Below are positions 10,517 to 34,030 of a stretch of 48,090 nucleotides of DNA, piece after piece; position 1 is the first letter of the stretch, and each line of letters begins with the position of its first letter. This stretch comes from an uncultured Clostridia bacterium. GTDB taxonomy: Bacteria; Bacillota; Clostridia; Christensenellales; Borkfalkiaceae. The position numbers and the translations under genes were made by a program. The notes beneath the pieces were generated by a model. The model saw nothing but the letters and a program-made list of their open reading frames with translations. It did no database searches and was not told where the DNA came from. The stretch is from positions 1 through 48,090 of the forward strand of contig CANQQD010000011.1 in assembly GCA_947625865.1 (NCBI GenBank), read 5' to 3'.

Positions 10517-10566
10517 AACCAAAATCAAAATAAAAAAATCATAATATCATTTAGAGGAGAAAAATT

Positions 10567-13316: not shown

Positions 13317-13317
13317 T

Positions 13318-13853: not shown

Positions 13854-13869
13854 GGGGAAATAAATAAAA

Positions 13870-14967
13870 ATGGCACAACTTACATTCAAAAACATAAACA
13901 AGGTTTATCCCAACGGTTTCCATGCCGTGCACGACTTTAACCTTGAAATCAACGACGGCGAGTTCATCTGCCTTGTAGGCTCATCCGGCTGCGGAAAGTC
14001 CACGACCCTCAGAATGGTTGCGGGACTCGAGGATATCACCGCGGGCGAGTTCCTTATCGACGGAAAGCTTGCCAACCAGATGACCTCGAGGGAGAGGGGA
14101 ATAGCGATGGTATTCCAGTCCTACGCGCTCTATCCTCACCTCACCGTGTACGAAAACCTTGCGTTCGGTCTTACCCTCGAGGGTATCGACGCCGACGTTA
14201 TCGAGGAAAAGGTTCAGGCGACCGCTAAAATTCTCGGTCTCGAGCCCTATCTCGACAGGTTCCCCCGCGCGCTCTCCGGCGGTCAGTGCCAGCGTGTCGC
14301 GGTAGGCCGCGCGCTGATAAGAAAGGTTAATATCTTCCTTATGGACGAACCTCTCTCCAACCTCGACGCAAAGCAGCGTGTTACCATGCGTTCGGAGATA
14401 AAGCAGATCCACCGCTCCGTGGGCGCGACCACAATCTACGTTACCCATGACCAGACAGAGGCAATGACCATGTCCGACAGGATAGTAGTCATGAACGCGG
14501 GCAGGATCCAGCAGGTGGGCACCCCCTTCGAGCTGTATTTCTATCCCCGGAACCTCTTCGTCGCTGGCTTCATAGGCGAGCCTCCCATGAACTTCATAAA
14601 GGGCACCGTTGAGGGCGGCAAACTGACGGTCGGCGAGCTCTCGCTCGACCTTACGCCCATAGTGAACGACGTGGCGGCGCTCGAGGGCAGAAAGGTCGTA
14701 TTCGCTTTCCGTCCCGAGGCAATAGAGCTCGATCCTAAGGGCTCCGACCACTATACCATAAATTCGCAGGTAGATCTTACCGAGCTTCTCGGCGACACTA
14801 CCAACGTATATGCGAATGTGGGAGACGTAAACGTAATACTCAAGGTCAACCCGCACAAGACGCCTGCAATGGGCTCCGGGTTCAGCTTTGCCGTGCCTTA
14901 CAAGGCAGCCTATGTGTTCGATCAGGAGACCGAGCAGATAGTGGAAAATTCGCTCGAAAGGCATTAA
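13870..14967 (+). CDS. Sugar ABC transporter ATP-binding protein (MsmX/UgpC type)
   Basis: Energises a CUT1-family sugar importer at the inner face of the membrane. The 365 residues show Walker A GSSGCGKST (37-45), LSGGQ (135-139), Walker B FLMDEP and the C-terminal regulatory OB-fold (~240-365). Residue 140 after LSGGQ is Cys where the paralogue at 27851 and most relatives have Arg. No permease genes adjoin; it leads the uxaBAC operon, so it may power the importer at 21942-28945 or an unlinked one. Confidence 0.9.
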   Translation: MAQLTFKNINKVYPNGFHAVHDFNLEINDGEFICLVGSSGCGKSTTLRMVAGLEDITAGEFLIDGKLANQMTSRERGIAMVFQSYALYPHLTVYENLAFGLTLEGIDADVIEEKVQATAKILGLEPYLDRFPRALSGGQCQRVAVGRALIRKVNIFLMDEPLSNLDAKQRVTMRSEIKQIHRSVGATTIYVTHDQTEAMTMSDRIVVMNAGRIQQVGTPFELYFYPRNLFVAGFIGEPPMNFIKGTVEGGKLTVGELSLDLTPIVNDVAALEGRKVVFAFRPEAIELDPKGSDHYTINSQVDLTELLGDTTNVYANVGDVNVILKVNPHKTPAMGSGFSFAVPYKAAYVFDQETEQIVENSLERH

Positions 14968-14973
14968 AGCGCA

Positions 14974-15009
14974 GGGCGGGCGCAGCTTTGATCTCCGCCT
15001 GCCCGTTTT
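14974..15009 (+). terminator. Weak terminator-like hairpin between ATPase and uxaB genes
   Basis: GGGCGGGCG pairs with CGCCTGCCC (one G-U pair) and is followed by GTTTT. The next gene starts 55 bases later with no clear promoter, so it may lower rather than stop transcription. Confidence 0.4.
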
Positions 15010-15063
15010 AAAGCGCCGCATAAAGCGGCAACAATAAAAAAATAAGATCCGGAGCAATGAATT

Positions 15064-17980: not shown

Positions 17981-19392
17981 TGAAAGAATTTATGGATAAG
18001 GACTTCCTTCTCGACACCGACACGGCAAAAATGCTCTATCACGAGCACGCCGAGAAGATGCCCATAATAGACTATCACTGCCACCTCCAGCCCAAGGAGA
18101 TTTACGAGGACAAGAAGTTCAGGAATCTCGCCGAGGTCTGGCTGGGCGCGGGCGACAGATACGGCGACCACTACAAGTGGCGCGCCCTCCGCGCAAGGGG
18201 CTACGGGGAGGACTCCATTTCGGGGCCCGACGACGACTACAAAAAATTCATGCAGTTCGCCGAGAGCATGCCCTATTTCGTGGGCAATCCCCTCTATCAC
18301 TGGTCGCACCTCGAGATGCGCAGATATTTCGGCATAGACGACATTATAAATAAAGAAAACGCGCCCAAGATCTGGGAAAAGGCGAACAAGGTTCTCGAAA
18401 CGCTCACCGCCCGCGAGATGATGTATAAGTTCAACGTAAAGACGGTGTGCACCACCGACGACCCCGTGGACAGCCTCGAGTGGCACAAGAAGATGAACGA
18501 GGACAAGACGCTCAAAGTGCGCGTGCGCCCCGCCTTCCGTCCCGACAAGGCGATAAACGTAGAACTCTCGTGGTTCCGTAGCTGGGTGGACCAGCTTGCG
18601 GGAGTAGTGGGCAGACCCATCAAGTCCTTGCAGGATCTGCTCGACGCGCTTGCCGAAAGGATCAAATTCTTCGATTCCATGGGCTCCAAGCTCTCCGACC
18701 ACGCGCTGGACGTCGTTTGCTACGCCCCCGCGACCTACAAGGAGGCAAACGAGATCTTCTTAAAGGGCATGAAGGGCGAGCATATCTCCGTGGGAGAGCA
18801 GGATAAATACAAGGGTTACGTGCTCATCGCGCTTGCCAAGGAATACGCAAAGTACGGCTGGGTGCAGCAGTATCATATCGGCGCGCTCAGAAACAACTCC
18901 AAGAGCATGCTCGAAAAGATAGGCCCCGACACCGGCTTCGACGCAATAGAGGACGCGGTATACATGGAAAAGCTCTCCGCGCTCCTCGGCGAGATAGACA
19001 AGGACGGCAATCTGCCCAAGACGATTTTGTACTGCCTCAACCCGCGCGACAACTATGCCTTAACGGTGCTTGCGGGCTGCTTCCAGAAGGAAGGCGTGAA
19101 GGGCAGGGTGCAGGTCGGCACGGCGTGGTGGTTCCTCGACCAGCAGGACGGCATGCGCCAGAACCTCGAAACGCTGATGCAGGTAGGGCTTGTGGCGCAG
19201 TCCGTGGGCATGCTCACCGACAGCCGCTCCTTCCTCGCATATCCCCGCCACGAGTACTACAGAAGATTGCTCTGCCAGATGCTCGGCAGACTTGTGGAAA
19301 GCGGGCAATACCCCGCGTGCGAACTTCCCCGTCTCGGCAAGATTGTGGAGGATGTGTGCTATAACAACGCCGCCGAATATTTCGGGTTTTAA
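17980..19392 (+). CDS. uxaC: Uronate isomerase (glucuronate/galacturonate isomerase)
   Basis: Isomerises D-galacturonate to D-tagaturonate, and D-glucuronate to D-fructuronate. The 470-residue amidohydrolase-fold enzyme opens with the metal site DYHCHL (H33, H35). It includes the family stretches WKWR-like HYKWRALRARG and CLNPRDNY, and ends with the TDSRSFLAYPRHEYYRR block. It is last in the operon, coupled to uxaA by a one-base overlap and followed by a strong terminator. Confidence 0.95.
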   Translation: MKEFMDKDFLLDTDTAKMLYHEHAEKMPIIDYHCHLQPKEIYEDKKFRNLAEVWLGAGDRYGDHYKWRALRARGYGEDSISGPDDDYKKFMQFAESMPYFVGNPLYHWSHLEMRRYFGIDDIINKENAPKIWEKANKVLETLTAREMMYKFNVKTVCTTDDPVDSLEWHKKMNEDKTLKVRVRPAFRPDKAINVELSWFRSWVDQLAGVVGRPIKSLQDLLDALAERIKFFDSMGSKLSDHALDVVCYAPATYKEANEIFLKGMKGEHISVGEQDKYKGYVLIALAKEYAKYGWVQQYHIGALRNNSKSMLEKIGPDTGFDAIEDAVYMEKLSALLGEIDKDGNLPKTILYCLNPRDNYALTVLAGCFQKEGVKGRVQVGTAWWFLDQQDGMRQNLETLMQVGLVAQSVGMLTDSRSFLAYPRHEYYRRLLCQMLGRLVESGQYPACELPRLGKIVEDVCYNNAAEYFGF

Positions 19393-20037: not shown

Positions 20038-20967
20038 TCAATCCGACGTAAAACGCGCCTTGAAAGTATTTATAATTTCATTAGTCTCGTCCGCGGACAA
20101 CTTTTTGCTCCACGGGACGGGAGCTGTTTCCCTGCCCGAAAGCCCGAAATGTGCAAACCTCGCCGTTTTGTCCCTTTGCGTGTCGTTCCATTTGTCGTAG
20201 AGGGACGGGTCGATATGCGTTCCCAGCCGGCAGTCTATAAATTCGCACTTGCCGAAGTCTCTCCAGGGTCTTGCAAGGAATACGGCGCCCTCGCCCGCGC
20301 CCTCAGAAATAAAATCGCAGCCGTAAAAAACAAATCCGCGCTCCTGCTTCAGCGAATGCGCCGGAGCGGCGACATAGCCGCGGCCCCTTGTGTCGTGCAG
20401 GGATATAAGCTTGCAGCTTTTGAAAAGCGCCGTGGCGCAGCCGAAAATAAAGTCCACCGTGCCGTAGATCCTGCAATTTTCAAACAGGTGGAGGGAGCCG
20501 CCTTCCATATAGAGCTGTTTTTCGGGGATAAATCCGCGGTAGCGGTTCACGAGGTCGTCGGGAAACGGTGCTACAAACAGCGTGTCCTGCGTGGACCTGA
20601 GGTCGACGTTTTCAGCCGAAAAACTCTTCGAATTTACCGAGAGCGCCACGCATTGCCCTACGGCTGCGGGGTCGGTGTTGGAGTTTTCGATGGTAAGATT
20701 TTTAAATTTAACGCGCTCGCCCGTGACGCACACCGTGTAGGTGCGGAAGGTGTTGTATTCCTGCCCGTCGGCGTGAATTTTACGCGCGTAATCGTCATAA
20801 GTTATAACAGTTGTTTCACGTTCCTCGCCTATCAGGGTAACGTCGTCGGCTTCTATAAGGGTCTTCCGGCGGTAGACGCCCTTTTTCAAATATATGGTGG
20901 CGGGTTCATGCAGATTATTCAATATGTCCGACAAATTGTCGCTTGCGTCCAAATGCAGCTCTCGCAT
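20038..20967 (-). CDS. Pectin methylesterase (CE8), predicted cytoplasmic
   Basis: Hydrolyses methyl esters of galacturonate residues. The 309-residue beta-helix protein shows GQCVALSV (104-111), QDTLF with D128, YGTVDFIFG with D172 and LARPW with R234, which are the catalytic and binding motifs of the family. There is no signal peptide; the sequence starts MRELHLDAS. It would therefore act on imported methylated oligogalacturonides, like other cytoplasmic or periplasmic members. AGAGGAG lies upstream of the ATG. It is divergent from the importer operon and shares its intergenic control region. Confidence 0.9.
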   Translation of the reverse strand: MRELHLDASDNLSDILNNLHEPATIYLKKGVYRRKTLIEADDVTLIGEERETTVITYDDYARKIHADGQEYNTFRTYTVCVTGERVKFKNLTIENSNTDPAAVGQCVALSVNSKSFSAENVDLRSTQDTLFVAPFPDDLVNRYRGFIPEKQLYMEGGSLHLFENCRIYGTVDFIFGCATALFKSCKLISLHDTRGRGYVAAPAHSLKQERGFVFYGCDFISEGAGEGAVFLARPWRDFGKCEFIDCRLGTHIDPSLYDKWNDTQRDKTARFAHFGLSGRETAPVPWSKKLSADETNEIINTFKARFTSD

Positions 20968-21126: not shown

Positions 21127-21819
21127 ATGAGCAATAGAAACATATTCGGGAGATTGTCCTATAACCAATATAAATTTTGGGATCTGTTCCTGTTTTTGGT
21201 GATTATGGGGCTGTTCGAGTTGATAAATTATATGGCTCTGAACCACTGGTTTTCGAATATGCTGTTCACTGTTTCGCTGATGTATGCGATATCCCTTATC
21301 GTATTGGTCCGCTGGAATTGGTTTGCTTCGCTTTTTCCCGTTTTGGACGGGATTCTATATTGTGTATTATACGGTGCAACGGCGCAAATGTATGTGATTT
21401 ACGCCGTCGGCAACGCTTTTCTGCTTTTAAGTTGGTTCATATTTAAGCTCATTCCCAAAAAAAAGCTCTTCTCCAGGTGGTATTTAACGCTGATATATCC
21501 CGTCGCGGCGGTGATCTTGGTGTTTATCGGCAGGAGCGCCGTGGCGGCATGCTTCGGATATGATTTCATCGGAGTAATGGCCGAGAACGCGTGGGATCTT
21601 GTGAGCGGCGCGTTTGCGGTGATAGCCCTGCTCGTCGTCCGCAGGATAGACGGCATGCTCGTAGACCAGAAGGAGTATCTCTTGGAACTCGAGGAGCAGA
21701 AGAAGGGCAGACCCGCCGACGAGGACAAGTGGGAGGGCTACACCGAACTCAGCGAGGACGAGCTCAAATATTTCCGCAGCGATAGCGAAAGTATTTTGAA
21801 AAAGCCGGACGACAAATAG
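21127..21819 (+). CDS. Uncharacterised membrane protein at the head of the importer cluster
   Basis: I do not recognise the family. The 230-residue product has about five hydrophobic segments (roughly 18-36, 43-61, 66-108, 119-137, 150-172) and an acidic cytoplasmic tail (EEQKKGRPADEDKWEGYTEL region). There is no signal peptide or catalytic motif. It is separated by 122 bases from the permease gene, and together with the proteins at 26653, 27273, 28959 and 29642 it makes five small membrane proteins in this cluster. The ribosome site is weak. Confidence 0.7.
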   Translation: MSNRNIFGRLSYNQYKFWDLFLFLVIMGLFELINYMALNHWFSNMLFTVSLMYAISLIVLVRWNWFASLFPVLDGILYCVLYGATAQMYVIYAVGNAFLLLSWFIFKLIPKKKLFSRWYLTLIYPVAAVILVFIGRSAVAACFGYDFIGVMAENAWDLVSGAFAVIALLVVRRIDGMLVDQKEYLLELEEQKKGRPADEDKWEGYTELSEDELKYFRSDSESILKKPDDK

Positions 21820-21941
21820 CTCTTTTCCAAAGTATATATTATATAATGTGGTCGCGGCAACGCGTTCCTTCAAAATTCGGCAATAAGCTTCAGGCTTTTG
21901 TATATTACTAAGACACTAAGTGATATGGAGGAAAAATTTCA

Positions 21942-23027
21942 ATGTTCAAACTCAAATGCGACGACTTCCTTGTCTATGACGAGTCGACCGGCACCTACTC
22001 GATGTCGGCTGACCAGCAGGTAAGGGACGAGGCTGAGAAGAACACATGGAAGTCCGCCGGATTCACGATCCTCAAAGACTGGCGTCTCTATCTGATGCTC
22101 GTACCCATGATTTTGGTGTATTTCCTTTGGAAGTACATGCCCATGTACGAGTTGACCGCCTGCTTCAAGGATCCTACCACCGGCGATGCGGCAGGTCACG
22201 TCAATTCAATGTCGTGGGCAGGCTTGCGGTATTTCCAGATGCTGTTCACCGATAAGCAGCTCAGCCCGGAATTCTGGTTTGCTTTCAGGAACACGTTCAT
22301 AACCGCGTTCTACGGGCTTTTGTTCGGGTTCCCCACGCCCATAATTCTGGCGCTGTTCTTCAATGAAGTACGCTCCAACATTGTACGCTCTATAATGCAG
22401 GTTTGCGTATATCTGCCCAAGTTCCTTTCGACGGTTATAGTAACCTCCCTTGCGCTCATTCTCTTCCGCGGCACAGCTAACGGAAAGCAGAGCGAAGGTA
22501 TTGTGGCGTCCATATTTAAAGCGTTCGGCGCTGATAAGGCGCTTATCGACAACGGTCTTGTGTTCACAACCCAATACTACAGGGCGATCTACATAATCAC
22601 CGACCTGTGGGAGCACGCGGGCTATGACTCGATAGTGTTCTTCGCGGCGGTAATAGCCGTTTCGCCTACGTCATACGAGGCTGCGCAGATAGACGGCGCG
22701 GGCAAGATGGCGCAGATGAGATACGTCGTAATTCCTTCGATCCTTTCGACGGTCGTTATAATGCTCATAATGAAGATAGGCGGACTTCTCTCCGTAGGCT
22801 ACGAAAAGATATACCTGTTATTGGGCGACGGCGTTAACGGCGAGGACAACTACGCCGTGGCGCAGGTTGTTTCAACTCTTGCCAACCAGTGGTCGGGCGA
22901 CGGCAACATCTCCGGCGGCAAAGCTCTCGGTACCGCTGCCGAAATGCTCAATAACTTAATAGGAATGATCCTCGTGCTCGGCGCAAACGCTGTTGCGAAG
23001 AGAGCTTCCAACGTATCGCTGTATTAA
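21942..23027 (+). CDS. Sugar ABC transporter permease, LplB/YteP type
   Basis: One half of the membrane channel of a CUT1 importer. The 361-residue protein has a roughly 45-residue hydrophilic N-terminal extension, then six membrane helices and the ATPase-contact loop EAAQIDGAGKMAQM. B. subtilis YteP-YtcP-YtcQ, which import rhamnogalacturonan products, are the obvious functional model given GH105 in the same cluster. ATGGAGGAAAAATTTCA precedes the ATG. It is followed 18 bases later by the second permease. Confidence 0.92.
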   Translation: MFKLKCDDFLVYDESTGTYSMSADQQVRDEAEKNTWKSAGFTILKDWRLYLMLVPMILVYFLWKYMPMYELTACFKDPTTGDAAGHVNSMSWAGLRYFQMLFTDKQLSPEFWFAFRNTFITAFYGLLFGFPTPIILALFFNEVRSNIVRSIMQVCVYLPKFLSTVIVTSLALILFRGTANGKQSEGIVASIFKAFGADKALIDNGLVFTTQYYRAIYIITDLWEHAGYDSIVFFAAVIAVSPTSYEAAQIDGAGKMAQMRYVVIPSILSTVVIMLIMKIGGLLSVGYEKIYLLLGDGVNGEDNYAVAQVVSTLANQWSGDGNISGGKALGTAAEMLNNLIGMILVLGANAVAKRASNVSLY

Positions 23028-23045
23028 GGAGGGGAAGAGTAAACC

Positions 23046-23972
23046 ATGAAAAGAAAAACAGAAAAATCCGAGCTTATATTCCGGATAGTTGCATATTTCA
23101 TTCTCATAGTTTTCGCACTGATCTGCGTATATCCTCTTATATATGCCCTTTCGGCTGCGTTCAGTTCGTCCGCTGCGCTCAATGCCGGCAAGGTCGTCAT
23201 AATTCCCGTGGATGTGCAGGGCACGGCGTTCCTCTCCGTAATCACGGATAACGTATTCTGGGTAAACTACTCCAACACCCTGTTTTTGACCTTCTTCGGC
23301 ACGGTATGGGCGTTGGGCTACTCCATACTCGGCGCATACGCTCTCTCCAAAAAGAGACTTATGGCAAGGCGCGCCTTCAACTTCTTCCTCGTATTCACAA
23401 TGTGGTTCTCCGCAGGTATAGTTCCCCAGTATCAGAACTATATGAACACCGCCGAGGTGTTTGCAAATATAGGCATAAGCGACCTCAAGTGGACGGTAGT
23501 TTTAGCGATGGGCATGAACGCGACCAACATAATCCTTTTAAGAAACGCCTTCGAGGGCGTTCCCTCCGAAATAGAGGAGGCGGCAAGGATCGACGGCGCC
23601 ACCGAAATGCAGATACTTACCAAGGTGTATATCCCCATGAGCAAGGCGACGATAGCAACGGTCGCATTGTTCTTCGGAATTTCCCGCTGGAACGGTTACT
23701 TCTGGGCGTACAAGGTAATACCTTCCTCGCAGAGCTTCTCGTGGCCCGTGCAGGTTTATATCCGCGACTATATTGATAAGTACACCACTATTTCCAACAG
23801 CCCGCATCAAATGGTAGACGATATAGAGCAATGGGATACCAAGTACCCTTATGCGGCAATATCCGCGGTATATTCGATGGTCGTATGCGCCGTTATCCCC
23901 ATCCTTGCAATCTATCCCTTCATCCAGAAGTATTTCGCAAAGGGCGTCAATATGGGCGGCGTAAAGGAATAA
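23046..23972 (+). CDS. Sugar ABC transporter permease, LplC/YtcP type
   Basis: Second channel half, 308 residues with six helices and the EAA loop EIEEAARIDGATEMQI. The KRKTEKSELIFRIVAYFIL opening is typical of YtcP-like permeases. AAGGAGGGGAAG near the upstream stop serves as ribosome site. The gap of 64 bases to the binding-protein gene has no terminator. Confidence 0.92.
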   Translation: MKRKTEKSELIFRIVAYFILIVFALICVYPLIYALSAAFSSSAALNAGKVVIIPVDVQGTAFLSVITDNVFWVNYSNTLFLTFFGTVWALGYSILGAYALSKKRLMARRAFNFFLVFTMWFSAGIVPQYQNYMNTAEVFANIGISDLKWTVVLAMGMNATNIILLRNAFEGVPSEIEEAARIDGATEMQILTKVYIPMSKATIATVALFFGISRWNGYFWAYKVIPSSQSFSWPVQVYIRDYIDKYTTISNSPHQMVDDIEQWDTKYPYAAISAVYSMVVCAVIPILAIYPFIQKYFAKGVNMGGVKE

Positions 23973-24036
23973 TAATGTTTAATTTGGGGTAAAACCCTGT
24001 TAATAAAAAAGAAAAATATTTTATAAGGAGAAAAAA

Positions 24037-26565
24037 ATGAACAAATACAAAAAACTCGCCATTGCCGCGGTCTCCATGGTAATGGCAGGAACAATGGCAG
24101 TTTCATTGGCAGCCTGCGGCGGCGGTGGCGGCAGCGAAGGTCCCTCTAAACACACTCCCCGTCCGGCAACTTATCAGGGAACCATTGATAACACCAAGAT
24201 CACCAAGCTTTTAACGCATATGACCGAAAGCAAGGCTGATACAAGAGAAACGCGTCTTGCCGAAGGCTGGAAAACCGCTCAGGACTACTGGACGATCCTT
24301 AAGAACAGCGATATCGAAGATGCGGGCGCATATGACTACGCGGCATGTACCAGCAGAGCAAACGTAGAGCTCAACATTGCAATAGGGCACAACGATAAGA
24401 GAACATCGACCCACTTTGCAAGCGACTTCGGTAAGACCATAACCCTTCCCGACGGCAATACGTACACCAACAGCCAGGCTAAGCCCGCATGGGCTCAGAT
24501 GGGAAAAGACCTCAATATCACCTGGAAGGACGTATACAAGGGCTGGTCGTCGAGTGCCAACCTCAATAATATCGTCAGCAATCAGGACGGCGCTACCTAT
24601 GGGGGCGTGGATATGTTCACGACCGACCTCAGCGTAGCCGTATCAAAGGCTTCTAGCGGCACAAATATACTCAATCTGGCTGATCATCTTGATGAAATGC
24701 CTCACTTCAAGGCATTCCTCGAGAGCAACCCTATAGTATATCTGTCCCTCCTTCAGGACGGTATGGATAAGACGACCGGTGAGGGCAAGACGCTGTATGT
24801 CGCTCCCTACTTCGACGGTTACGACGATATCGAAAGATATTGCCTGATGCGCCAGGATATGGTAGCAAAGCTCCTCAACGGCAACACGGCTTCCACCAGC
24901 GATATTGCATTTACCGACGCATGTGCCGAGGATGTCTATGTATCCTCCTATATGGGTCAGACCGGTAAAATCAATATCGAGAGCCTGAATGAAGCCGGTA
25001 CTGCTAAAATAACCATCACCAAGGACTATGACGCGGCTCTTGCTGCAGCCAAGGACGAATCAACTGCTCTCGGAAAGGCTTACAAGGCAATTACAGATGC
25101 GGTTTATGCGGGCACCAGCGGCAACATCGTTGATATCATGAACGAAGCTTTGAAGGTTACCAACGGCGCAACCGGCGCTCAGCTTCTCGATCTTTACCGC
25201 GCATATATCGACGTAGCTTATAAGAACGGTACTTCCGCCGCTTATGCTGCAGACAAGCGCGCCAACCTCTTCAACGGCTACGACGCAGCATGGGATGCAG
25301 ACGATCTCTGCGCTCTGCTCCGTTGCGCAATGACCAACTCCTCGATGCTTGTAGGCGAAGGCAAGACTCTTCAGGGAATAGCTCCCCGTTCCGGCCAGAA
25401 CGACAGAACTCCCGATATGGTTTCCCTTGCGGCTCAGCTTTTCGGCGCACGTGGTGCAACATCCAGATTTGAGCAGACCTACATCGACAGTGAAGGCAAG
25501 CTTCAGGACGCACGTAACGACGCTCATTATTGGGAAGCTATGGCGCTTCTGCACAACTTCAAGGCCGAGGGTCTCATTGCCGACTACACCGGCTACGGCG
25601 ACTTCAGCGCAGCTCAGGGTATAAACGGCGATGTTGAAACTCTGATGCTCTACGATTATTCGCAGACGCAGACCTCCAACGCAATAGCCCTTGATGCAGA
25701 TGTTTCCATTGATCTTCCTCAGGGCTACAAGTTCGGTCCCGTTATGACTCCCGTTGCTAAGTGGGATGTTGACGGCGACAACAACTACGGCGAAGCGGAC
25801 GAAATATTTAGATTCACCGAGAGCTGGCGTTCCACCAAGACCGGCGGTCTTGCACTCAACGGCGCTCTTACGGGCGATAAATTAACGGCGGCTCTTCAAT
25901 TCGTTGACTACCTGTACTCCGAAGACGGTCAGATAGTTTCCACCTACGGCCCCATGGCTACCAACGCACAGGGCGCGGGCGGTTTCTGGTACAACACGCA
26001 GGCTACTGCCGAGCAGATAGCTGCAGGTAAGTACTTCACCTACAAGGGCGTAAAATACTCCGGCACGGATTATAAGGGTAAAACCACTCCCACAATAACG
26101 ACCACCCTCTATAATGCATTCGCAGGCAAGGATGGCGTTACCGGCGGCGGCTCTGCAAACCTTGAAGGCTCTGCACGTAACTTCACCAACTACGCACGTA
26201 GACTTATCGGTTCCACGCTTCCCGTAGGCGTTAAGGATCAGTCCTTCGAGAACCAGCTCACCGCTTCCATGGGACGTGAGGGCGCAAACAAGGTAGGTCA
26301 GGGACTTGCACTCGGCACGGTTAAGGGCATGAGCCTCGAGATCGACGCGAACAACTACTGGTTCACCTGCGTTCCTTCGGGACTTCCTATTTCGTCTGAT
26401 ATTCAATCTTCCGAACTTGACGGTACAGCGCAGCAGCATCTTAAGTATATAACCGGTACTGCAAAAAAGAGCGGAGACAAGAACTTCTATAGCATAATGA
26501 ACTATATAATTCTTAACGGTTTAAGTGGCAGATATAATCAGCAGAGTGAGTCTTATTCTTTCTGA
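24037..26565 (+). CDS. Oversized solute-binding lipoprotein of the sugar importer
   Basis: Captures oligosaccharides outside the cell. A lipoprotein signal is clear: KYKK, a hydrophobic core, then LAAC with lipidated C27 and a glycine-rich linker. The rest (842 residues in all) resembles extracellular solute-binding protein family 1, for example PMATNAQGAGGFWY and the VDYLYSEDGQ region near the C-terminus. Ordinary relatives have about 430-550 residues, so about 300 are extra, probably within 270-480. Codon choice is richer in GTT/GCT than in its neighbours, as for highly expressed genes. Placement after both permeases and before a stabilising hairpin fits its role. Confidence 0.9.
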   Translation: MNKYKKLAIAAVSMVMAGTMAVSLAACGGGGGSEGPSKHTPRPATYQGTIDNTKITKLLTHMTESKADTRETRLAEGWKTAQDYWTILKNSDIEDAGAYDYAACTSRANVELNIAIGHNDKRTSTHFASDFGKTITLPDGNTYTNSQAKPAWAQMGKDLNITWKDVYKGWSSSANLNNIVSNQDGATYGGVDMFTTDLSVAVSKASSGTNILNLADHLDEMPHFKAFLESNPIVYLSLLQDGMDKTTGEGKTLYVAPYFDGYDDIERYCLMRQDMVAKLLNGNTASTSDIAFTDACAEDVYVSSYMGQTGKINIESLNEAGTAKITITKDYDAALAAAKDESTALGKAYKAITDAVYAGTSGNIVDIMNEALKVTNGATGAQLLDLYRAYIDVAYKNGTSAAYAADKRANLFNGYDAAWDADDLCALLRCAMTNSSMLVGEGKTLQGIAPRSGQNDRTPDMVSLAAQLFGARGATSRFEQTYIDSEGKLQDARNDAHYWEAMALLHNFKAEGLIADYTGYGDFSAAQGINGDVETLMLYDYSQTQTSNAIALDADVSIDLPQGYKFGPVMTPVAKWDVDGDNNYGEADEIFRFTESWRSTKTGGLALNGALTGDKLTAALQFVDYLYSEDGQIVSTYGPMATNAQGAGGFWYNTQATAEQIAAGKYFTYKGVKYSGTDYKGKTTPTITTTLYNAFAGKDGVTGGGSANLEGSARNFTNYARRLIGSTLPVGVKDQSFENQLTASMGREGANKVGQGLALGTVKGMSLEIDANNYWFTCVPSGLPISSDIQSSELDGTAQQHLKYITGTAKKSGDKNFYSIMNYIILNGLSGRYNQQSESYSF

Positions 26566-26598
26566 TTGTAGCAAGTTAAAACATTATAAAGTTATTGA

Positions 26599-26627
26599 GG
26601 GGCGCCCGCGCAGGGCGCGGGCGCCCC
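26599..26627 (+). promoter_or_regulatory. Very stable hairpin after the binding-protein gene
   Basis: A perfect 13-base-pair GC stem (GGGGCGCCCGCGC / GCGCGGGCGCCCC) with a three-base loop, followed by GAAAAAACC rather than Ts. It is not an intrinsic terminator. It probably protects the 3' end of the binding-protein message, so that it is more abundant than the downstream genes. Confidence 0.65.
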
Positions 26628-26652
26628 GAAAAAACCTTTCGGGGGATAAAAT

Positions 26653-27276
26653 ATGAAAACTCAGATGAGATTCCAAAAATACATGTGCCTTGCGATGTTG
26701 CTTGTCGGCGCATTGTCATTGCTATATGCATTTTTCTATTGCTCGGGAGCCCTTTCCGAGCTGGGGCAAGCGATAAAGCTTGATGGCGTAAACAGGGTTT
26801 CTGCGTTTACGGCAGCAGAGGGAAAATACGACGCCGTTTTTTATAATGATATCCAGCCCTTTAATAATCTTTTGATGATAATGGGTATAGTGATGATATT
26901 GCTTGCGGTCGTGCTCTATATAACGGGCTGCAACAAGAGAAGAAATTATTACATAAGCAACTATGTTGCAACCGGCTTGTGCGCAGGCGGCGATATCGTT
27001 ATTTCGTTGATTCTTTTGGTTATGTGCGGGACATGGCACAATAAGTTTCTTAATGTGGACTTTGAAGCATGGAAAGCTTATGCTGACAAAATGGACGAGT
27101 CAGCCAGGCATTTCAGCGATTCGCAGTTGTGGTTCATATTGGGTTATGTTGTGTATGCAATAGTAATAGTTGCTGCAATATTGCTTATTTTGAATCTCGT
27201 ATGGAAGATTCTCCTTATGAAAGGTGAAAAGCAGTTGCTCAACGGCAGCGCGCTCAAAGAAGGAGGTGCGGTATGA
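26653..27276 (+). CDS. Uncharacterised four-helix membrane protein (importer cluster)
   Basis: I cannot assign a family. It has 207 residues with likely helices at about 10-33, 71-92, 102-125 and 159-190, and a soluble stretch of some 35 residues after helix 1. No enzyme motif is seen. The stop overlaps the next start by four bases (ATGA), so it is translationally coupled to the next membrane protein and through it to the ATPase gene. An accessory importer subunit is a reasonable inference. Confidence 0.75.
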   Translation: MKTQMRFQKYMCLAMLLVGALSLLYAFFYCSGALSELGQAIKLDGVNRVSAFTAAEGKYDAVFYNDIQPFNNLLMIMGIVMILLAVVLYITGCNKRRNYYISNYVATGLCAGGDIVISLILLVMCGTWHNKFLNVDFEAWKAYADKMDESARHFSDSQLWFILGYVVYAIVIVAAILLILNLVWKILLMKGEKQLLNGSALKEGGAV

Positions 27277-27851
27277 ACAACACGACATCCAATCCCGTTA
27301 TAAGTAGCGATATAATGCGCTACAAAAAGAACAAATTCGGAGCAAATCTTGCTCTTTTAGCAATAGTTTTCGACTGTATTTACTTTATGGTTCTATACAG
27401 TGTAGCTAATGATGAGGGCGTGGAATACTACGCAACATGGGCAATAGCGTTTGACGTTATTTTCAACCTTGTATTCCTGCTTGCAACATTCCTGTTGTCC
27501 GAACAGGTAAAAAATTATAACAGTAAGCTTTTTATTCTTCAGCTTATTTTGGGCGCATGCCAGATCGGCAGAATCTTCTGGTTGCCTCTCGGCGGATTCA
27601 TGGCTGATCCCAAAGCAATAGACATAGGCAAATTCCTTGTTATGGCTATCTCGCTCGGAGCTTCCGGCGGACTTGAAATAGCTTCCGCGGTGATAGGTTA
27701 TATCCGCAGCAAACAGGTTGCCGAATTCAACCAAAAGGTCGAGAACGGCGAAGTGGATATAATGGCGACTATCCGCCAGGTTGACGCAGAGGAAGAAGCG
27801 GCAAAAGCAGCTCCCGTAGTTGCCGGTAACGCGCAAGAGGAGGTGCAATAA
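27273..27851 (+). CDS. Uncharacterised four-helix membrane protein coupled to the ATPase gene
   Basis: 192 residues, helices at about 22-44, 54-76, 85-106 and 118-143, then a charged and alanine-rich cytoplasmic tail (EEEAAKAAPVV). AAGGAGGTGCG gives a strong ribosome site. It overlaps both neighbours: four bases with the upstream gene and one base (TAATG) with the ATPase gene. Function unknown; such coupling points to a complex with the transporter. Confidence 0.75.
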   Translation: MNNTTSNPVISSDIMRYKKNKFGANLALLAIVFDCIYFMVLYSVANDEGVEYYATWAIAFDVIFNLVFLLATFLLSEQVKNYNSKLFILQLILGACQIGRIFWLPLGGFMADPKAIDIGKFLVMAISLGASGGLEIASAVIGYIRSKQVAEFNQKVENGEVDIMATIRQVDAEEEAAKAAPVVAGNAQEEVQ

Positions 27852-28945
27852 TGCCTGAAGTAAACATTCGACATCTGGACAAAATTTATGACGGCGGCGT
27901 GCAGGCTGTATATGATTTCAACCTTGACATAGCCGACGGCGAGTTTATAGTCCTTGTAGGACCTTCCGGTTGCGGCAAGTCTACGACCCTTCGTATGGTT
28001 GCCGGACTTGAAGATATATCCGCAGGCACCCTTATCATAGACGGTAAGGACTGCACGCAGTTGCCCCCTAAGGACAGAGATATAGCGATGGTGTTCCAGA
28101 ACTACGCTCTGTACGGGCACATGACGATTTACGAAAACATGGCTTTCTCCCTGACCCTCCGTAAGGAGAACAAGGAGATCATTCACAGAAAGGTTATGGC
28201 TGCGGCTGAGATACTTGATTTAAAGACCCAGCTCAACAAAAAGCCCCGCCAGCTCTCCGGCGGCCAACGCCAGCGTGTGGCGATGGGACGTGCAATAGTC
28301 CGTAACCCCAAGGTGTTCTTGTTTGACGAACCTCTTTCGAACCTCGACGCAAAGCTACGCGGATCGATGAGGCGCGAGCTTATCCTTCTTCATAAAAAAC
28401 TGAACGCAACTATCATGTACGTTACCCACGACCAGACGGAAGCATTGACGCTTGCCGACAGGATCGTTTGTATGTCGATGGGACATGTTCAGCAGATAGG
28501 TAAGCCCATCGAGCTTTATGAAAAACCCGCAAACACATTCGTTGCCACCTTTATAGGACTTCCTCCCATGAATATGTTCGAAGGTAAGATTGAGGGCGGT
28601 CACTTCAAGTGCGACCTGTTCGATTATCCTCTTTCGGCAGAGCAGGGCAAGGTGCTTGCCGGTCATGAAGGCAAACAAGTCATTTTGGGCGTACGTCCCG
28701 AAAACGTGACCCGCGACGGGCACATAGACCTTGCCATAACCAACAACGAGAACCTCGGTATGAACACACTCGTTCACGGTAAGATCGGCGGCAAGAAGAT
28801 AGTGGTTTGCAAGTTTGCCGAGTGGTGCAACTATAAGGCGGGCGACACTATCCAGATAGGCTTCGATCCCGAGATGATGCACTTCTTCGAGATGCCTCAA
28901 AAAGATGAAAAGGGCAATGAATTGCCAGGTAAAGCAATAAGGTAA
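27851..28945 (+). CDS. Sugar ABC transporter ATP-binding protein of the importer cluster
   Basis: MsmX/UgpC-type ATPase, 364 residues: Walker A GPSGCGKST (37-45), LSGGQRQRV (135-143), Walker B FLFDEP, regulatory OB-fold from about 240. It closely resembles the paralogue at 13870 over the ATPase domain. Many Bacillota importers of this class share one unlinked MsmX; here an ATPase gene sits inside the importer operon. CAAGAGGAGGTG precedes its ATG. Confidence 0.93.
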   Translation: MPEVNIRHLDKIYDGGVQAVYDFNLDIADGEFIVLVGPSGCGKSTTLRMVAGLEDISAGTLIIDGKDCTQLPPKDRDIAMVFQNYALYGHMTIYENMAFSLTLRKENKEIIHRKVMAAAEILDLKTQLNKKPRQLSGGQRQRVAMGRAIVRNPKVFLFDEPLSNLDAKLRGSMRRELILLHKKLNATIMYVTHDQTEALTLADRIVCMSMGHVQQIGKPIELYEKPANTFVATFIGLPPMNMFEGKIEGGHFKCDLFDYPLSAEQGKVLAGHEGKQVILGVRPENVTRDGHIDLAITNNENLGMNTLVHGKIGGKKIVVCKFAEWCNYKAGDTIQIGFDPEMMHFFEMPQKDEKGNELPGKAIR

Positions 28946-28958
28946 GGAGGTAAGAGAT

Positions 28959-29567
28959 ATGTCAGAAAACGTTCAGACTAAGAAAGAAACCTTTGAAGAG
29001 CCCTCCAAGCCTTCGGTTGGCGCAAGGATAAAGGAGTGGTTCCGCAAGAAGATAGTTAATCTCAAGCGCCGTCCCCAGAATATAGCCTTGCTGTTCCTTG
29101 CGATTGCTTCTGTTTATTACATGTTCATAATGTTTGTAATAGGCGGGGCAATTAATGAAATCAACCAGGTTGATAGCCTTCCTGCAACAGGGCTTTGCAC
29201 TTTTATTTCTACCCTTTTGTCAATACTTGTGCTTGTAAGCTTTTTGAACTCATTTCCCAAGCGTAAGAAGCCTAATATTGTATTCATTATAATCACAGCA
29301 TTAATGATAGCTGCAATAATCGGCTGTGATTTGGGGTATTATATACCTGTAGGTGAATATCTTAAAACCCCGGAAGGTTTGACAAGATCAGTGGCTCCTA
29401 AGGCACAGCCCTATGTGCTTGCCCATATTATTCTTCTTGCGGTGGCGGCAGTGGTGTTTGCGCTCCTGCCCGTTTACAGCAAGCTGATCAAGAAGATCAA
29501 TACTTCCGTCAAGCTTGAATCCGCGACCGAGAATATGAAGGGCGGCATCGATATTCAGGAAGACTGA
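28959..29567 (+). CDS. Uncharacterised four-helix membrane protein
   Basis: 202 residues with a basic cytoplasmic N-terminus (RIKEWFRKKIVNLKRRPQN) and helices at about 42-63, 77-98, 105-128 and 150-173. No family was recognised. It follows the ATPase gene by 13 bases with AAGGAGGTAAG as ribosome site. Topology resembles the 27273 product, and the two may be distant relatives. Confidence 0.72.
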   Translation: MSENVQTKKETFEEPSKPSVGARIKEWFRKKIVNLKRRPQNIALLFLAIASVYYMFIMFVIGGAINEINQVDSLPATGLCTFISTLLSILVLVSFLNSFPKRKKPNIVFIIITALMIAAIIGCDLGYYIPVGEYLKTPEGLTRSVAPKAQPYVLAHIILLAVAAVVFALLPVYSKLIKKINTSVKLESATENMKGGIDIQED

Positions 29568-29592
29568 TAAAACATTAAAATTTATCCGAAAT

Positions 29593-29627
29593 ATAACCGG
29601 CAAAATAAATTTTTGTCGGTTATTTTT
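29593..29627 (+). terminator. Terminator within the importer-hydrolase cluster
   Basis: ATAACCGGCAAAA pairs with TTTTGTCGGTTAT (one mismatch-like pair) and runs into TTTTT. It lies 25 bases past one gene and 14 bases before the next start, leaving no room for a promoter after it. Downstream expression must depend on readthrough or on regulated folding. Confidence 0.7.
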
Positions 29628-29641
29628 CAAAAGGACGCAGG

Positions 29642-30331
29642 ATGTCTAAGAAAAAAAATAAAACGCCCGAGACGACAATAGAAAATTATTACGATCTGAA
29701 GGTCGACAAGGTTGACGAACTCGTCGCCGTTCTGAAGGGCGAGAGTACTACCTTTGAAGAGGACGTGAACTATGCGATGAATGCCAATATGGGCGTTTAC
29801 GATCCCAAAAATGTAAAGCGTAACGGCAAGGACAAGGAGTTCGACCCCTATAAAACGGATTTTTTAGGCAGGGTGCCCACATGGATAAAGGCGATATTCA
29901 TTAAATTTTGGTTCGCGGGCATGGTCTGCTATTTTGTAATGATGGGTATTATGCCAAACAGCGGCTATCTCGACCAAGCCGTACTGACGGGCGCGGTTAT
30001 GGGTATAATCGTTGACATACTTGTCAATCCGCTGTTCAGATTTATGGAGTCCGACAGACGGGAGTTCAACGCCTACATGATGTTCCCGTTCCCGTTTAAG
30101 GCGTTCTGGACATTTTTTGCAAACATATTCTATTATATCATAGTCGGCTATCTGATTGCCGTAGTCTACACCTATCTCGTGATCGCCAAGGTGGTCATGG
30201 GTGTGGAGCCGCTTTTGTTCGGAGTGATAAATGTTGCCATCGACATGCTGTTTATCGGCATAAAGGACGGCGTGGTTGCGCTTGTCCGGCATTTAAAAAA
30301 CAAAAATAAGGAGAAAGAGGCTAATGTTTAA
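29642..30331 (+). CDS. Uncharacterised membrane protein coupled to the GH28 gene
   Basis: 229 residues with a hydrophilic N-terminal part of about 80 residues, then helices at about 82-104, 112-132, 152-178 and 186-212. No family was recognised. The stop overlaps the polygalacturonase start by 8 bases, so the two are translated together. A weak ribosome site (AAAGGACGCAGG) lies directly after the terminator hairpin. Confidence 0.72.
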   Translation: MSKKKNKTPETTIENYYDLKVDKVDELVAVLKGESTTFEEDVNYAMNANMGVYDPKNVKRNGKDKEFDPYKTDFLGRVPTWIKAIFIKFWFAGMVCYFVMMGIMPNSGYLDQAVLTGAVMGIIVDILVNPLFRFMESDRREFNAYMMFPFPFKAFWTFFANIFYYIIVGYLIAVVYTYLVIAKVVMGVEPLLFGVINVAIDMLFIGIKDGVVALVRHLKNKNKEKEANV

Positions 30332-31862
30332 GAAGCTCTTCGTTTCAAGCACCACGGCGTGCTTTGAATTGAAAAATTCAAATCCCTACTACAGCCCCGA
30401 AAAATATAAGGTACTTTTGAACGGCGAAGTCGTAGGCGAATACAGCACGAATGTATTTTCTCTTTTCGACCTGCAACCTGGGACGCAGTATGCCGTAGCC
30501 GTTAAGCCCGGCAGGGGACGCATAACGTTCACCACGCCCACCGACGCCGGGGTTATCGACGTGAAATCCATCGGCGCAAAGGGCGACGGCGTTTCGGACG
30601 ACACATATTACGTCCAGATGGCGATAGATATGTGCCCCGAAGGCGGCAGAGTGGTAGTTGCGGGCGGTAGCTTTCTCGTCCGTCCGATAGTTTTAAAAAG
30701 CGACATTACGCTGGAGATAAAAAAGGGTGCGGAGCTTTTGGGTGATATCGAGGAAACGCATTATCCCTATGTGCCCGCGAGCGCGTTTGTCGACGGCAAA
30801 AAGGAGATTTTGGCAAGCTGGGAGGGCGAGCTTCACGACTGCCACCAGTCCTTTGTTTCGGCATACAGACAGAAAAATATAAAAATAGTGGGCGAGGGCG
30901 CCATAAACGGCAACGCAGACCACTCCACATGGTGGGCGACGCCCAAGGGCAGGAAGGTCGCCCGTCCCCGCCTCGTGTTCCTGAACAAATGCAGAAACGT
31001 CGTATTCCACGGCGTGACCTGCAAGAACTCGGCTTCGTGGAACCTTCATCCCTTCTTTTCAAACAATCTCAAATTTTACGATCTGAGAATACAGAACCCC
31101 TATACGGGTCCCAATACCGACGGCCTCGACCCCGAGAGTTGCGACAAAGTGGATATAGTCGGCTGCGTATTCAGCGTCGGCGACGACTGCTGCGCCATCA
31201 AGAGCGGCAAACTCCACATGGGCAGGACGTTCAAAACGCCCGCAAACCACCACACCCTCCGCAACAACCTTTTCCAGGACGGTCACGGCGCAATAGTTTT
31301 GGGCAGCGAGATGAGCGGCGGTGTAGAAAATCTCACCGTTTGCCAGTGCGTATTCAAGCACACCGACAGGGGGCTCAGAATAAAATCCCGCCGCGGCAGG
31401 GGCAAGGACGGCATTATTGACGGCGTACTCTTCGAAAACATAAAAATGGAGAATGTGATAACGCCGCTTGTAATAAACATGTATTATTTCTGCGACCCCG
31501 ACGGTCACACCGAATACGTCTGGTCCCGCGACCCCAACACCCCCGTGGACGACGGCACGCCCTACCTCGGCAAATTCAGGTTCAAGGACATCGACTGTGT
31601 GGACTGCGAGTGTATGGCGGGCTATTTCGACGGGCTCGTGGAACAGCCCATAAAGGAGGTCGCCATCGAGAACGTCAGTTTCCACTTCAAGGCGGACGCA
31701 AAGCCCTCGAAGCCGGCAATGCTCGAGCATGTCCGCGACTTCTGCAGGGAGGGGCTGTACGTAGACAATGTTGAACGCCTCGTGCTCAAAAACGTGACGT
31801 TCGACGGAGTAGTCGGCGAAAAGATCATCAAGCACAACTGCAAAGAAGTGACAGAGGAATAG
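30324..31862 (+). CDS. Polygalacturonase-type glycoside hydrolase (GH28), predicted cytoplasmic
   Basis: Cleaves galacturonate-containing oligosaccharides. After an N-terminal beta domain of about 75 residues (fibronectin III-like) comes the right-handed beta-helix. All GH28 landmarks are present: NTDG with D266, D287-D288, GHG with H321 and RIK (352-354). No signal peptide is seen in 512 residues, so it should act inside the cell, probably as an exo-enzyme on imported oligomers. The N-terminal domain plus GH28 arrangement is common in exo-polygalacturonases. GH105 follows 9 bases later. Confidence 0.9.
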   Translation: MFKKLFVSSTTACFELKNSNPYYSPEKYKVLLNGEVVGEYSTNVFSLFDLQPGTQYAVAVKPGRGRITFTTPTDAGVIDVKSIGAKGDGVSDDTYYVQMAIDMCPEGGRVVVAGGSFLVRPIVLKSDITLEIKKGAELLGDIEETHYPYVPASAFVDGKKEILASWEGELHDCHQSFVSAYRQKNIKIVGEGAINGNADHSTWWATPKGRKVARPRLVFLNKCRNVVFHGVTCKNSASWNLHPFFSNNLKFYDLRIQNPYTGPNTDGLDPESCDKVDIVGCVFSVGDDCCAIKSGKLHMGRTFKTPANHHTLRNNLFQDGHGAIVLGSEMSGGVENLTVCQCVFKHTDRGLRIKSRRGRGKDGIIDGVLFENIKMENVITPLVINMYYFCDPDGHTEYVWSRDPNTPVDDGTPYLGKFRFKDIDCVDCECMAGYFDGLVEQPIKEVAIENVSFHFKADAKPSKPAMLEHVRDFCREGLYVDNVERLVLKNVTFDGVVGEKIIKHNCKEVTEE

Positions 31863-31871: not shown

Positions 31872-33005
31872 ATGGATTATTCAATCATCGACAGATATAT
31901 CGACAGGCTCATCGAGGACACAACTCCCGACAAGCCCATCTGGAACATAGAGAACATCAAGCAGGGCAAAAAGCCCGCATGGAACTATATCGACGGCTGC
32001 ATGATGACCTCGCTGTACACCATTTACAGGCAGACGGGGCTCAAAAAGTACATCGATTTTATTGACAAATTCGTGGATTATTATGTGTACGAGGACGGCT
32101 CGATCCGCGGCTATGACCTTGAAACCTACAACCTCGACAATCTCAACGAGGGCAGGGTGCTCTTCGATCTGTACCGCGAAACAGGCAAGGAAAAGTACAA
32201 AAAAGCCATAGAGCTTTTGCACAGCCAGATACTCTCCCAGCCACGCACGGGAACGGGCAACTTCTGGCACAAGAAGATCTATCCCAATCAGGTGTGGTTG
32301 GACGGATTATATATGGCGCAGGTGTTCTACACCCGTTATGAAACGGAAATGAACGGCGGCAAGGGCTATGGCGATATCGTAAAGCAGTTCCGGGCCGTCT
32401 ATGACAACATGTACGACAAGGAGAAAAAGCTCTACTATCACGGCTGGGACTGGTCAAAGCAGGCGTTCTGGGCGGATAAAAAGACGGGGCTTTCCAAATC
32501 CTTCTGGCTCCGTTCGGTCGGCTGGTACACAGTGGGTCTGGTGGACGCCATAAGCTATTTCAGCGACGGCGCCATCGGCGAGAAGGCTCAGCTCATAGAA
32601 ATATTCCGCAACACTATAGAGGGGCTGGAGCAGTACATAGACCCCGACGGACGCATGTTCTATCAGGTGCCCGACCAAATGGGCCGCGAGGGCAACTATC
32701 TCGAAACGTCGGGCAGCGCCATGATCTCCTATGCGATGATGAAGGGCGCCCGCCTCGGTTATGTGGACAAAAGGTTTGCCGCGCTCGGCAAAGAGGTGTT
32801 CGACGGGATATGCGCCAAGTATCTCACCTCAACGGGCGGCAAGCTGAATTTAGGCGGCATCTGCCTTGTTGCGGGGCTCGGACCCGAGAACAATCCCCGC
32901 CGCAACGGCACGTTCGAATATTATATCTCGGAGCCCGTTGTAGAGAACGACGCAAAGGGCACGGGACCGTTCGTAATGGCATATACCGAACTCAAGCAGC
33001 TTTAA
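31872..33005 (+). CDS. Unsaturated rhamnogalacturonyl hydrolase (GH105)
   Basis: Removes the unsaturated uronate from the non-reducing end of pectic oligosaccharides made by lyases, feeding KduI. The 377-residue alpha6/alpha6 barrel has the catalytic region VWLDGLYMAQ with D144, matching D143 of B. subtilis YteR, and SFWLRSVGWYTVGL. No signal peptide. AGGAGGATATT precedes the ATG. It is the last gene of the cluster. YteR/RhiN-like is the best match; YesR-like specificity is possible. Confidence 0.92.
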   Translation: MDYSIIDRYIDRLIEDTTPDKPIWNIENIKQGKKPAWNYIDGCMMTSLYTIYRQTGLKKYIDFIDKFVDYYVYEDGSIRGYDLETYNLDNLNEGRVLFDLYRETGKEKYKKAIELLHSQILSQPRTGTGNFWHKKIYPNQVWLDGLYMAQVFYTRYETEMNGGKGYGDIVKQFRAVYDNMYDKEKKLYYHGWDWSKQAFWADKKTGLSKSFWLRSVGWYTVGLVDAISYFSDGAIGEKAQLIEIFRNTIEGLEQYIDPDGRMFYQVPDQMGREGNYLETSGSAMISYAMMKGARLGYVDKRFAALGKEVFDGICAKYLTSTGGKLNLGGICLVAGLGPENNPRRNGTFEYYISEPVVENDAKGTGPFVMAYTELKQL

Positions 33006-33217: not shown

Positions 33218-34030
33218 ATGACAACCGGTCAAAAGATTTTACAGTGCAGAAAGCAGAAGGGGCTCACCCAATCTCAGCTTGCCGGATTGCTGGGCGTAAC
33301 CCGTCAAACTGTCTCCCGCTGGGAGAGCGACTCGGTATTTCCGGAAACGGAAAATTTGGTTGAGATGGGCAGGCTTTTCAATGTAACGGTGGATTATCTT
33401 TTAAACTATGAAAATGAGGGCGGAGTTCCGCTTGGCGCAGGGCATAAACCGCTCAATCTGTCCGATATTTTTAAAAGCGGCGTTTACTTTGAGTACAGAA
33501 GCAAAAGAACTCTGTTCGGGCTTCCGCTCGTCCATGTGAATATTGGTTTAGGCAGGGCGGCAAAGGGAATAATAGCCGTCGGGCTTGTCGCAAAAGGGGT
33601 CATATCCTTTGGACTGCTCGGTTTTGGGGTAATTTCATTCGGACTTCTTTCCTTAGGCGTGTTCGCGTTCGGCACATTGGCGTTGGGGCTGTTCGCCGCG
33701 GGCGCGATCGCTCTCGGGATAGTAATTGCCGCAGGCGCAATAGCTTTGGGAATGTTCTCGCTTGGCGCGGTGAGCGTGGGGCTGTACGCTACGGGAGCCG
33801 TATCCTACGGCTATTTTGTTGCGATAGGCGACAGGGCTTGCGGATTTATTGCTGTTGGCGGGCATTATGCGCGGGGTACATATTCGGCTGTTGCAGACGA
33901 GCTTTATAGCTTAAAGGATATGATTTACTGTGGCTTTAACGATCTGCCTGCGGCGTTCGCGCTCTTTAACGGCTGGAGCAAAGGAATATTCGAAGGCGTT
34001 TTAAACGGCGCTATAACACTCGGCGGATAG
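33218..34030 (+). CDS. HTH (XRE) protein with a period-five glycine repeat domain
   Basis: Residues 5-63 are a Cro/C1-type HTH (GLTQSQLAGLLGVTRQTVSRWE). From about 110 to 214 almost every fifth residue is glycine: 21 glycines, with exact spacing of five except two steps of six. The consensus is hydrophobic-hydrophobic-A/S-x-G. This has the period of pentapeptide-repeat proteins, but the residues are hydrophobic. It could form a compact beta-solenoid or a membrane-embedded sensor. The C-terminal 55 residues are less regular. AAGGAGC precedes the ATG. The target is unknown; no enzyme gene is co-transcribed. Confidence 0.85.
   Translation: MTTGQKILQCRKQKGLTQSQLAGLLGVTRQTVSRWESDSVFPETENLVEMGRLFNVTVDYLLNYENEGGVPLGAGHKPLNLSDIFKSGVYFEYRSKRTLFGLPLVHVNIGLGRAAKGIIAVGLVAKGVISFGLLGFGVISFGLLSLGVFAFGTLALGLFAAGAIALGIVIAAGAIALGMFSLGAVSVGLYATGAVSYGYFVAIGDRACGFIAVGGHYARGTYSAVADELYSLKDMIYCGFNDLPAAFALFNGWSKGIFEGVLNGAITLGG

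Follow-up and report, generated by a model that had tools for sequence, protein, structure and literature searches.

The stretch of DNA analysed here, hereafter the window, is 48,090 nucleotides long and comes from an uncultured Clostridia bacterium (GenBank assembly GCA_947625865.1, contig CANQQD010000011.1). Between positions 21127 and 30331 it carries nine genes, named A to I in their order, in which two permeases (B and C), a binding lipoprotein (D) and an ATPase (G) are interleaved with five small membrane proteins (A, E, F, H and I). We consider it fairly probable that these nine genes encode one dedicated ATP-binding cassette (ABC) importer for galacturonate-rich chains derived from pectin, an enlarged relative of the LplBC/AlgM type in which five accessory subunits are obligate and the ATPases may be two unlike ones. 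We infer the contacts, substrate and mechanism of this importer from the comparisons below. The five are not chance neighbours of the transporter genes, because the same nine-gene order recurs in related genomes; they are probably obligate parts of the importer, or partners to it, and their mode of action is likewise something that we infer. ABC sugar importers are usually regarded as five-part machines, and the presence of a nine-gene block in several groups of gut Bacillota would mean an undescribed layer of importer architecture.

The order A-B-C-D-E-F-G-H-I was intact in 79 of 80 distinct untruncated loci (two of them with one gene split by a frame break), as counted on stop-to-stop frames of at least 60 amino acids, in which small breaks near gene ends go undetected. 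Identity to the window proteins ranges from 16 to 68 percent, and the order is nonetheless maintained; near-invariant residues are present in each of the five small families. A sequence-only reading of the window had proposed looking for the five beside oversized binding proteins and LplB/LplC permeases in other genomes, and this is the company in which they were found. The loci comprise the window, loci of the same family, loci from a scan of genome contigs with I and loci from a search with A, 108 in all; since these sets overlap, they reduce to 91 distinct loci, 77 of them complete. One collection of family members excluded those below set scores. The complete order is seen in 94 of the 108, and the other 14 are 11 that hit a contig end, two with a frame-split gene (E in locus L127 and D in L143) and one remnant (L138). 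Depositors' record titles assign the loci to Clostridia, Lachnospiraceae, Erysipelotrichaceae, Oscillospiraceae, Acholeplasmatales, Bacilli, Christensenella, Candidatus Coproplasma and others.

The scan with I retained 80 loci, in which I is present by construction, and the independent check on it comes from the searches that used F and A. Separate searches of 151 genomes of the same family with I and with F returned an identical set of 21 genomes, and the nine-gene order was found in 22 of 22 loci of that family, which fall in two genera. With A, 10 of 200 genomes of the order matched, nine of them strongly; these gave five known loci and four new ones (L166-L169), and all four new loci contain the complete block. 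The proteins are rare in wider samples, with I matching 3 of 291 genomes from the class and, at the level of the phylum, F matching 1 of 348 and A 1 of 398, and no intact copy of any of the five was found outside the block in the sampled searches. Stops interrupt the I match in genome G016 and a single TGA lies inside the A match in G319, while weak matches to I in G144 (contig C10) and to A in G173 and G250 (contig C147) were treated as chance; no block lies at the weak A match on contig C147 of G250.

Spacing within the block is also recurrent. E and F overlap in 42 of 76 loci and F and G in 41 of 76, with a median gap of -1 base for each; the median gap is 12 bases for G/H, 15 for B/C and 71 to 99.5 for A/B, C/D, D/E and H/I (some start codons were not settable, which leaves n=69-76 per junction and 69-77 proteins per family for the 77 loci). 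Complete blocks span 7974 to 10411 bases. In the window the overlaps are 4 bases for E/F (27273-27276), 1 base for F/G (27851) and 8 bases between I and the following GH28 gene (30324-30331), and the open reading frame (ORF) listing bore out all genes, coordinates and overlaps of the sequence-only reading. The conserved block closes with I, at 30331, and GH28 is a common but inconstant neighbour. Two contigs are unusual in content: on a Bacilli-labelled one, an unrelated ABC gene precedes what is left of the block in the remnant L138:5326-10061, the C-terminal part of G with H and I, and contig C1 of genome G116 has two copies of the block (L063 and L064), separated by about 20 kb and with all nine match scores identical, a large repeat or an assembly effect.

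The transporter genes, like the rest of the block, lie on the forward strand. B (21942..23027) and C (23046..23972) are permeases of the LplB/AlgM1 and LplC/AlgM2 types, both with Pfam matches to BPD_transp_1. In profile searches of the PDB their top matches were AlgM1 (E 4.8e-47) and AlgM2 (E 1.9e-71), followed by a SugA-type chain for B (9e-5) and by SugB for C (4.4e-8). D (24037..26565) is an enlarged binding lipoprotein of 842 amino acids; it has no Pfam match above cut-off, yet part of it aligns in profile comparison with AlgQ2/AlgQ1 (E 2.4e-20), which bind a polyuronate, in line with the binding protein already proposed from the letters. The median length of D in 76 relatives is 862.5 amino acids, compared with 490 to 516 in AlgQ chains, and a lipobox-like motif is present in 69 and a hydrophobic N-terminus in 75 of the 76. 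In one locus I is followed by a further gene for a D-type binding protein (L128:10648-13056). G (27851..28945) is a MalK/UgpC-type ATPase (NF008653, 461.6 bits; Pfam ABC_tran, OB_MalK and TOBE_2), so that Pfam confirmed the two permeases and the ATPase called earlier, and GH28 as well (Glyco_hydro_28). The permease pair, the MalK-type ATPase with intact motifs and the lipid-anchored receptor of the AlgQ/LplA kind are those of a type I importer (carbohydrate uptake transporter 1, CUT1) of the LplB-LplC/AlgM1-AlgM2 group; such importers have no additional conserved membrane subunits, whereas the block has five extra in 79 of 80 distinct untruncated loci.

By ORF and hydropathy, E (26653..27276, 207 amino acids), F (27273..27851, 192) and H (28959..29567, 202) have four membrane segments each, A (21127..21819, 230) has six and I (29642..30331, 229) has five that overlap; in the predicted model of I, about four membrane helices follow an N-terminal region that is cytosolic. 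For E, F, H and I, loop charges place both termini on the cytoplasmic side. None of the five matched a Pfam or NCBIfam family above its curated cut-off. A scan of 70 distant members against the same collections gave isolated hits in one or two members each (for example DUF3611, E 6.8e-5, in one member); the single-member Pfam hits and two such hits in NCBIfam were discounted because they differed from member to member. Profile searches of the PDB with 45 sequences per profile found no related chain for any of the five.

YesL/DUF624 (PF04854), the small protein known to accompany LplB/LplC permeases, was rejected as an identity for the five, with hhalign probabilities of at most 6.3 percent, compared with 96.5 percent for a control protein on contig C4 of the same genome. 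That control (L218:10090-10773) is a DUF624-like protein adjoining another LplB/LplC-type pair, recovered by profile comparison and missed by Pfam, whose DUF624 model has no match in this genome. Mutual homology among the five was likewise unsupported, since the best pair, F and H, reached 11.5-24.9 percent over the first two segments, E and H at most 11.4 percent and the remainder at most 2.4 percent. The genome has 16 matches to PF00528, including the window pair, and in the five other sugar-importer-like permease pairs that were read (three on contig C1, one on C4 and one on C12) neither A, E, F, H nor I lies nearby. No title or abstract opening describing the block was found in the literature, where coverage was of open-licence PMC text and absence is weak evidence.

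The substrate is suggested by the neighbouring genes, and the region of the window is a galacturonan-use island. A gene for pectin methylesterase (PME; 20038..20967, reverse strand, PF01095, E 3.5e-34) is divergent from the block and lies between A and the upstream uronate genes (8623-19392), which from their translations we take to be those of 2-keto-3-deoxy-6-phosphogluconate (KDPG) aldolase, 2-keto-3-deoxygluconate kinase, KduI, UxaB, UxaA and UxaC. Downstream, on the forward strand, are a GH28 polygalacturonase-like enzyme (30324..31862, PF00295) and a GH88/105-type hydrolase (GH105; 31872..33005, PF07470, E 4.8e-84). At least one of PME, GH28, GH105, UxaA, UxaB, UxaC and KduI is present in the fetched stretch of 95 of the 108 loci and of 69 of the 77 distinct complete ones. 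The window PME, GH28 and GH105 are without a hydrophobic N-terminus, and in a simple hydropathy test, by which export signals are rare among the linked enzymes, one was seen in 0 of 46 PME, 2 of 67 GH28 and 1 of 60 GH105 sequences, against 75 of 76 for D. These three enzymes thus look cytoplasmic, which would fit import of more than monomers, and a cytoplasmic methylesterase together with a polygalacturonase suggests entry of esterified chains beyond one or two units. The genome, which is 94 percent complete, has a single GH28 match, that of the window, and the block would make pectin feeding directly testable in bacteria whose sole GH28 looks cytoplasmic. Two other proteins of the region are of unusual build: the KDPG-aldolase-like protein at 8623-9606 (327 amino acids, identity taken from its translation) has an extra C-terminal domain, and the helix-turn-helix regulator at 33218-34030 has a long, hydrophobic, Gly/Leu-rich and repeat-like second half.

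Predicted structures set A apart from I. The AlphaFold2 model of A has a predicted local distance difference test (pLDDT) of 89.3 and a predicted template modelling score (pTM) of 0.80, and that of I has a pLDDT of 83.2 and a pTM of 0.68. In a fold search of the PDB, the model of I found no match, and the top eleven matches of A were all S components of energy-coupling factor (ECF) transporters (E 0.02-1.8, probability 0.51-1.00, template modelling score by target 0.47-0.60), counting 4huq chain S, which we take to be one. According to the parts of PMC11109136 drawn on here, the S-component fold is shared by MreD and 5TMR histidine kinases, and an AXXXA motif in helix 1 goes along with the docking of S components to EcfT. 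That motif is not conserved in A, where it is present anywhere in helix 1 in 21 of 75 sequences, compared with 30 of 75 in helix 2, and missing from the window protein (75 of the 77 A sequences were counted). A crude count found it within the first 50 residues of 19 of 28 control S components, one of which (L209) is probably in the wrong frame. The sole EcfT match of the genome is on contig C2, away from the block, which gives A no linkage to an ECF module. An Arg-Trp pair, R62-W63, is present in 75 of 75 A sequences, inside a long predicted helix (52-82), and contact between this pair and an acidic sugar is a speculation on our part.

Co-variation ties most of the five to the transporter. Distance matrices were compared over the 41 of 77 distinct loci that have all twelve families (the nine block genes, GH28, GH105 and PME), with GH105 as a proxy for descent; the loci are themselves related by descent, and the values are not independent tests. 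Given GH105, correlation with B, C and D was 0.61-0.77 for E, F and H and 0.33-0.43 for A, compared with 0.14-0.22 for GH28 and 0.28-0.31 for PME. Within 39 loci of one D type the ranges were 0.57-0.78 for E, F and H, 0.31-0.41 for A, -0.04 to 0.09 for GH28 and -0.05 to 0.09 for PME; splitting the loci by the two D types was dropped as an explanation, as it accounts for little and the second type makes up 2 of the 41. In both sets, the pairings of any of the five small proteins with B, C, D or G gave values that none of 1000 permutations attained. H correlated with B, C and D at 0.62-0.64, compared with 0.44 and 0.32 for its chromosomal neighbours G and I, and therefore proximity alone is insufficient. 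The co-occurrence of the five with an oversized binding protein and LplB/LplC permeases, the co-variation of four of them with the transporter, the lack of any family cut-off reached and the absence of intact copies elsewhere in the sampled searches make accessory subunits the best of the roles offered by the sequence-only reading.

The same values bear on other explanations. The five could form a membrane complex of their own, acting for instance as a sensor or as a platform on which the cytoplasmic pectin enzymes dock, and be merely co-expressed with an ordinary five-part importer; we regard this as unlikely, while granting that it has something in its favour, since the fold class of A includes membrane sensors and MreD (in the cited parts of PMC11109136) and I combines a long cytosolic N-terminus with distances that, before correction, track those of the enzymes. 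Against such a complex, the correlations of A, E, F and H given GH105 do not exceed 0.20 with GH28 and PME but are 0.33-0.77 with B, C and D, their genes are interleaved with those of the transporter, with E, F and G often overlapping, and the five are retained in the complete loci that have no pectin marker in the stretch. The last point and the low correlations also weaken the suggestion, made from the letters, of a scaffold for cytoplasmic hydrolases. It is improbable that the five instead aid the making, insertion or maturation of D or the permeases, in the manner of chaperones outside the working transporter: co-variation with D is high given GH105 (0.77 for E, 0.70 for F and 0.64 for H) and D is unusually large, but the fold of A belongs to transport or sensing proteins, and five separate chaperones for a single lipoprotein would be unusual. 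Very improbable is that the five are hitch-hikers with no shared function, retained through recent common descent and block transfer, because although the block is patchy across the phylum and looks transferred, and although divergence is greatest in the families of A, D, E, F and H (mean distance 0.85-0.99), the order holds at the identities given above with near-invariant residues in each family, and flanking genes vary while all five persist in 79 of 80 distinct untruncated loci.

A second MalK-type ATPase, G2 (13870..14967, forward strand, assigned by Pfam and motif comparison), lies outside the block, and both G and G2 retain their catalytic motifs. In a tree the 77 sequences of G group apart from the 26 of G2 (support 0.33 for the G group, 0.996 for the G2 group). 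Past the Q loop, 75 of 76 G sequences have Y-G-H or Y-A-H (the window protein Y-G-H), whereas 26 of 26 G2 sequences and four other ATPases of the same genome have Y-P; the comparison displays the six commonest strings, which for the G Q loop cover 76 of 77 sequences. In MalK the segment past the Q loop faces the coupling helix of the permease, and G may be adapted to this complex and pair with G2. Three further MalK-type ATPases on contig C1 of the same genome (L219, L220 and L221) are 646-668 amino acids long, about 300 above the usual length.

Several observations weigh against the importer that we propose. The likeness to AlgM is unspecific, as the ordinary LplB on contig C4 matches AlgM1 even better than B does (E 9.3e-68); the best matches to AlgM1 and AlgM2 were therefore rejected as a sign of polymer import and identify the permease family instead. 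The closest PDB chain to G is MsmX, followed by AlgS. G2, whose linkage to the block, like the S-component-like predicted fold of A, goes beyond what had been read from the letters, was present in the fetched stretch of only 24 of 77 distinct complete loci (just before A in 6, just after I in 7 and elsewhere in 11), stretches that reach about 10 kb either side of I and beyond which further G2 genes may lie. No pectin marker was found in the fetched stretch of 8 of the 77 distinct complete loci; in two of these (L123 and L131) the block is adjoined by an enzyme of GH4, a family that includes galacturonidases. The twelfth fold match of A was unrelated and no match had E < 0.001, and in sequence A reached 1.2 percent at best against 28 S components from related genomes, with no hit to PF12822, while two groups of S components matched one another at 78.4 percent. 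Among the 41 loci, all 1000 permutations were also beaten by PME with B, C and D and by GH28 with D and G, and the contrast with the five is there one of size. I is an exception among the five, with correlations of 0.53 with G, 0.57 with B and 0.31 with D given GH105, and of 0.85-0.88 with the pectin enzymes before correction.

A more specific form of the proposed importer, which we hold possible rather than probable, is a composite in which type I permeases work together with a subunit of S-component fold, four other membrane subunits, an AlgQ-type receptor of enlarged size and two unlike MalK-type ATPases paired as a heterodimer, and through which gut Bacillota would take long methyl-esterified pectin chains into the cytoplasm. 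In the importer that we propose at the outset, D would capture a long, partly methyl-esterified oligogalacturonide and B and C would form the ATP-driven path, perhaps powered by a G/G2 pair. The S-component-like A would sit beside B and C and help with acceptance or gating of the acidic chain; the four-helix proteins E, F and H, with both ends inside, would surround and stabilise B, C and D, and I, with its long cytosolic N-terminus, would face the ATPase side. Once in the cytoplasm, the chain would lose its esters and be cut through the action of PME, GH28 and GH105, and the products would pass to the uronate pathway encoded upstream. If A is indeed an S-component-fold partner of a type I importer, two importer classes thought separate become joined; the composite importer as a whole, if true, would add a further role for the S-component fold to those in ECF uptake, signalling and proteins of cell shape, and would give these gut Bacillota a way to take up near-polymeric pectin.

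Among known systems, YesL/DUF624 proteins resemble the five in having about 200 amino acids, several membrane helices and a gene beside LplB/LplC permeases, and differ from them in that profile similarity is absent, as given above. By its predicted fold A can be likened to ECF S components, MreD and 5TMR kinases; unlike ECF S components, it has neither their sequence similarity nor a conserved helix-1 AXXXA and is linked to a type I importer. Pectin or its oligomers are the substrate of SPH1118, a pectin-binding protein of about 70 kDa from Sphingomonas A1, and of TogMNAB-type oligogalacturonide importers, but in the portions of PMC7055323 consulted SPH1118 accompanies an oligopeptide-type ABC system and the Tog systems are named without small extra subunits, a comparison made here on their descriptions. 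The nearest PDB relatives of B, C and D are those of the Sphingomonas A1 system AlgQ2/AlgM1-AlgM2/AlgS-AlgS (PDB 4tqu) and the related Streptobacillus Smon0123/0121-0122/0120. Sphingomonas A1, in which a polyuronate, alginate, is imported and then cut inside, is the known precedent for uptake ahead of cutting (PMC5717064 and PMC7055323, in the parts cited), and the block loci share with AlgM1M2SS-like polymer importers the cytoplasmic location of the chain-cutting enzymes, assigned in the block loci by simple hydropathy only. As far as the cited parts describe them, AlgM1M2SS systems consist of a four-subunit transporter with an ATPase homodimer and a binding protein, to which the block adds five membrane proteins, a larger receptor and possibly two unlike ATPases.

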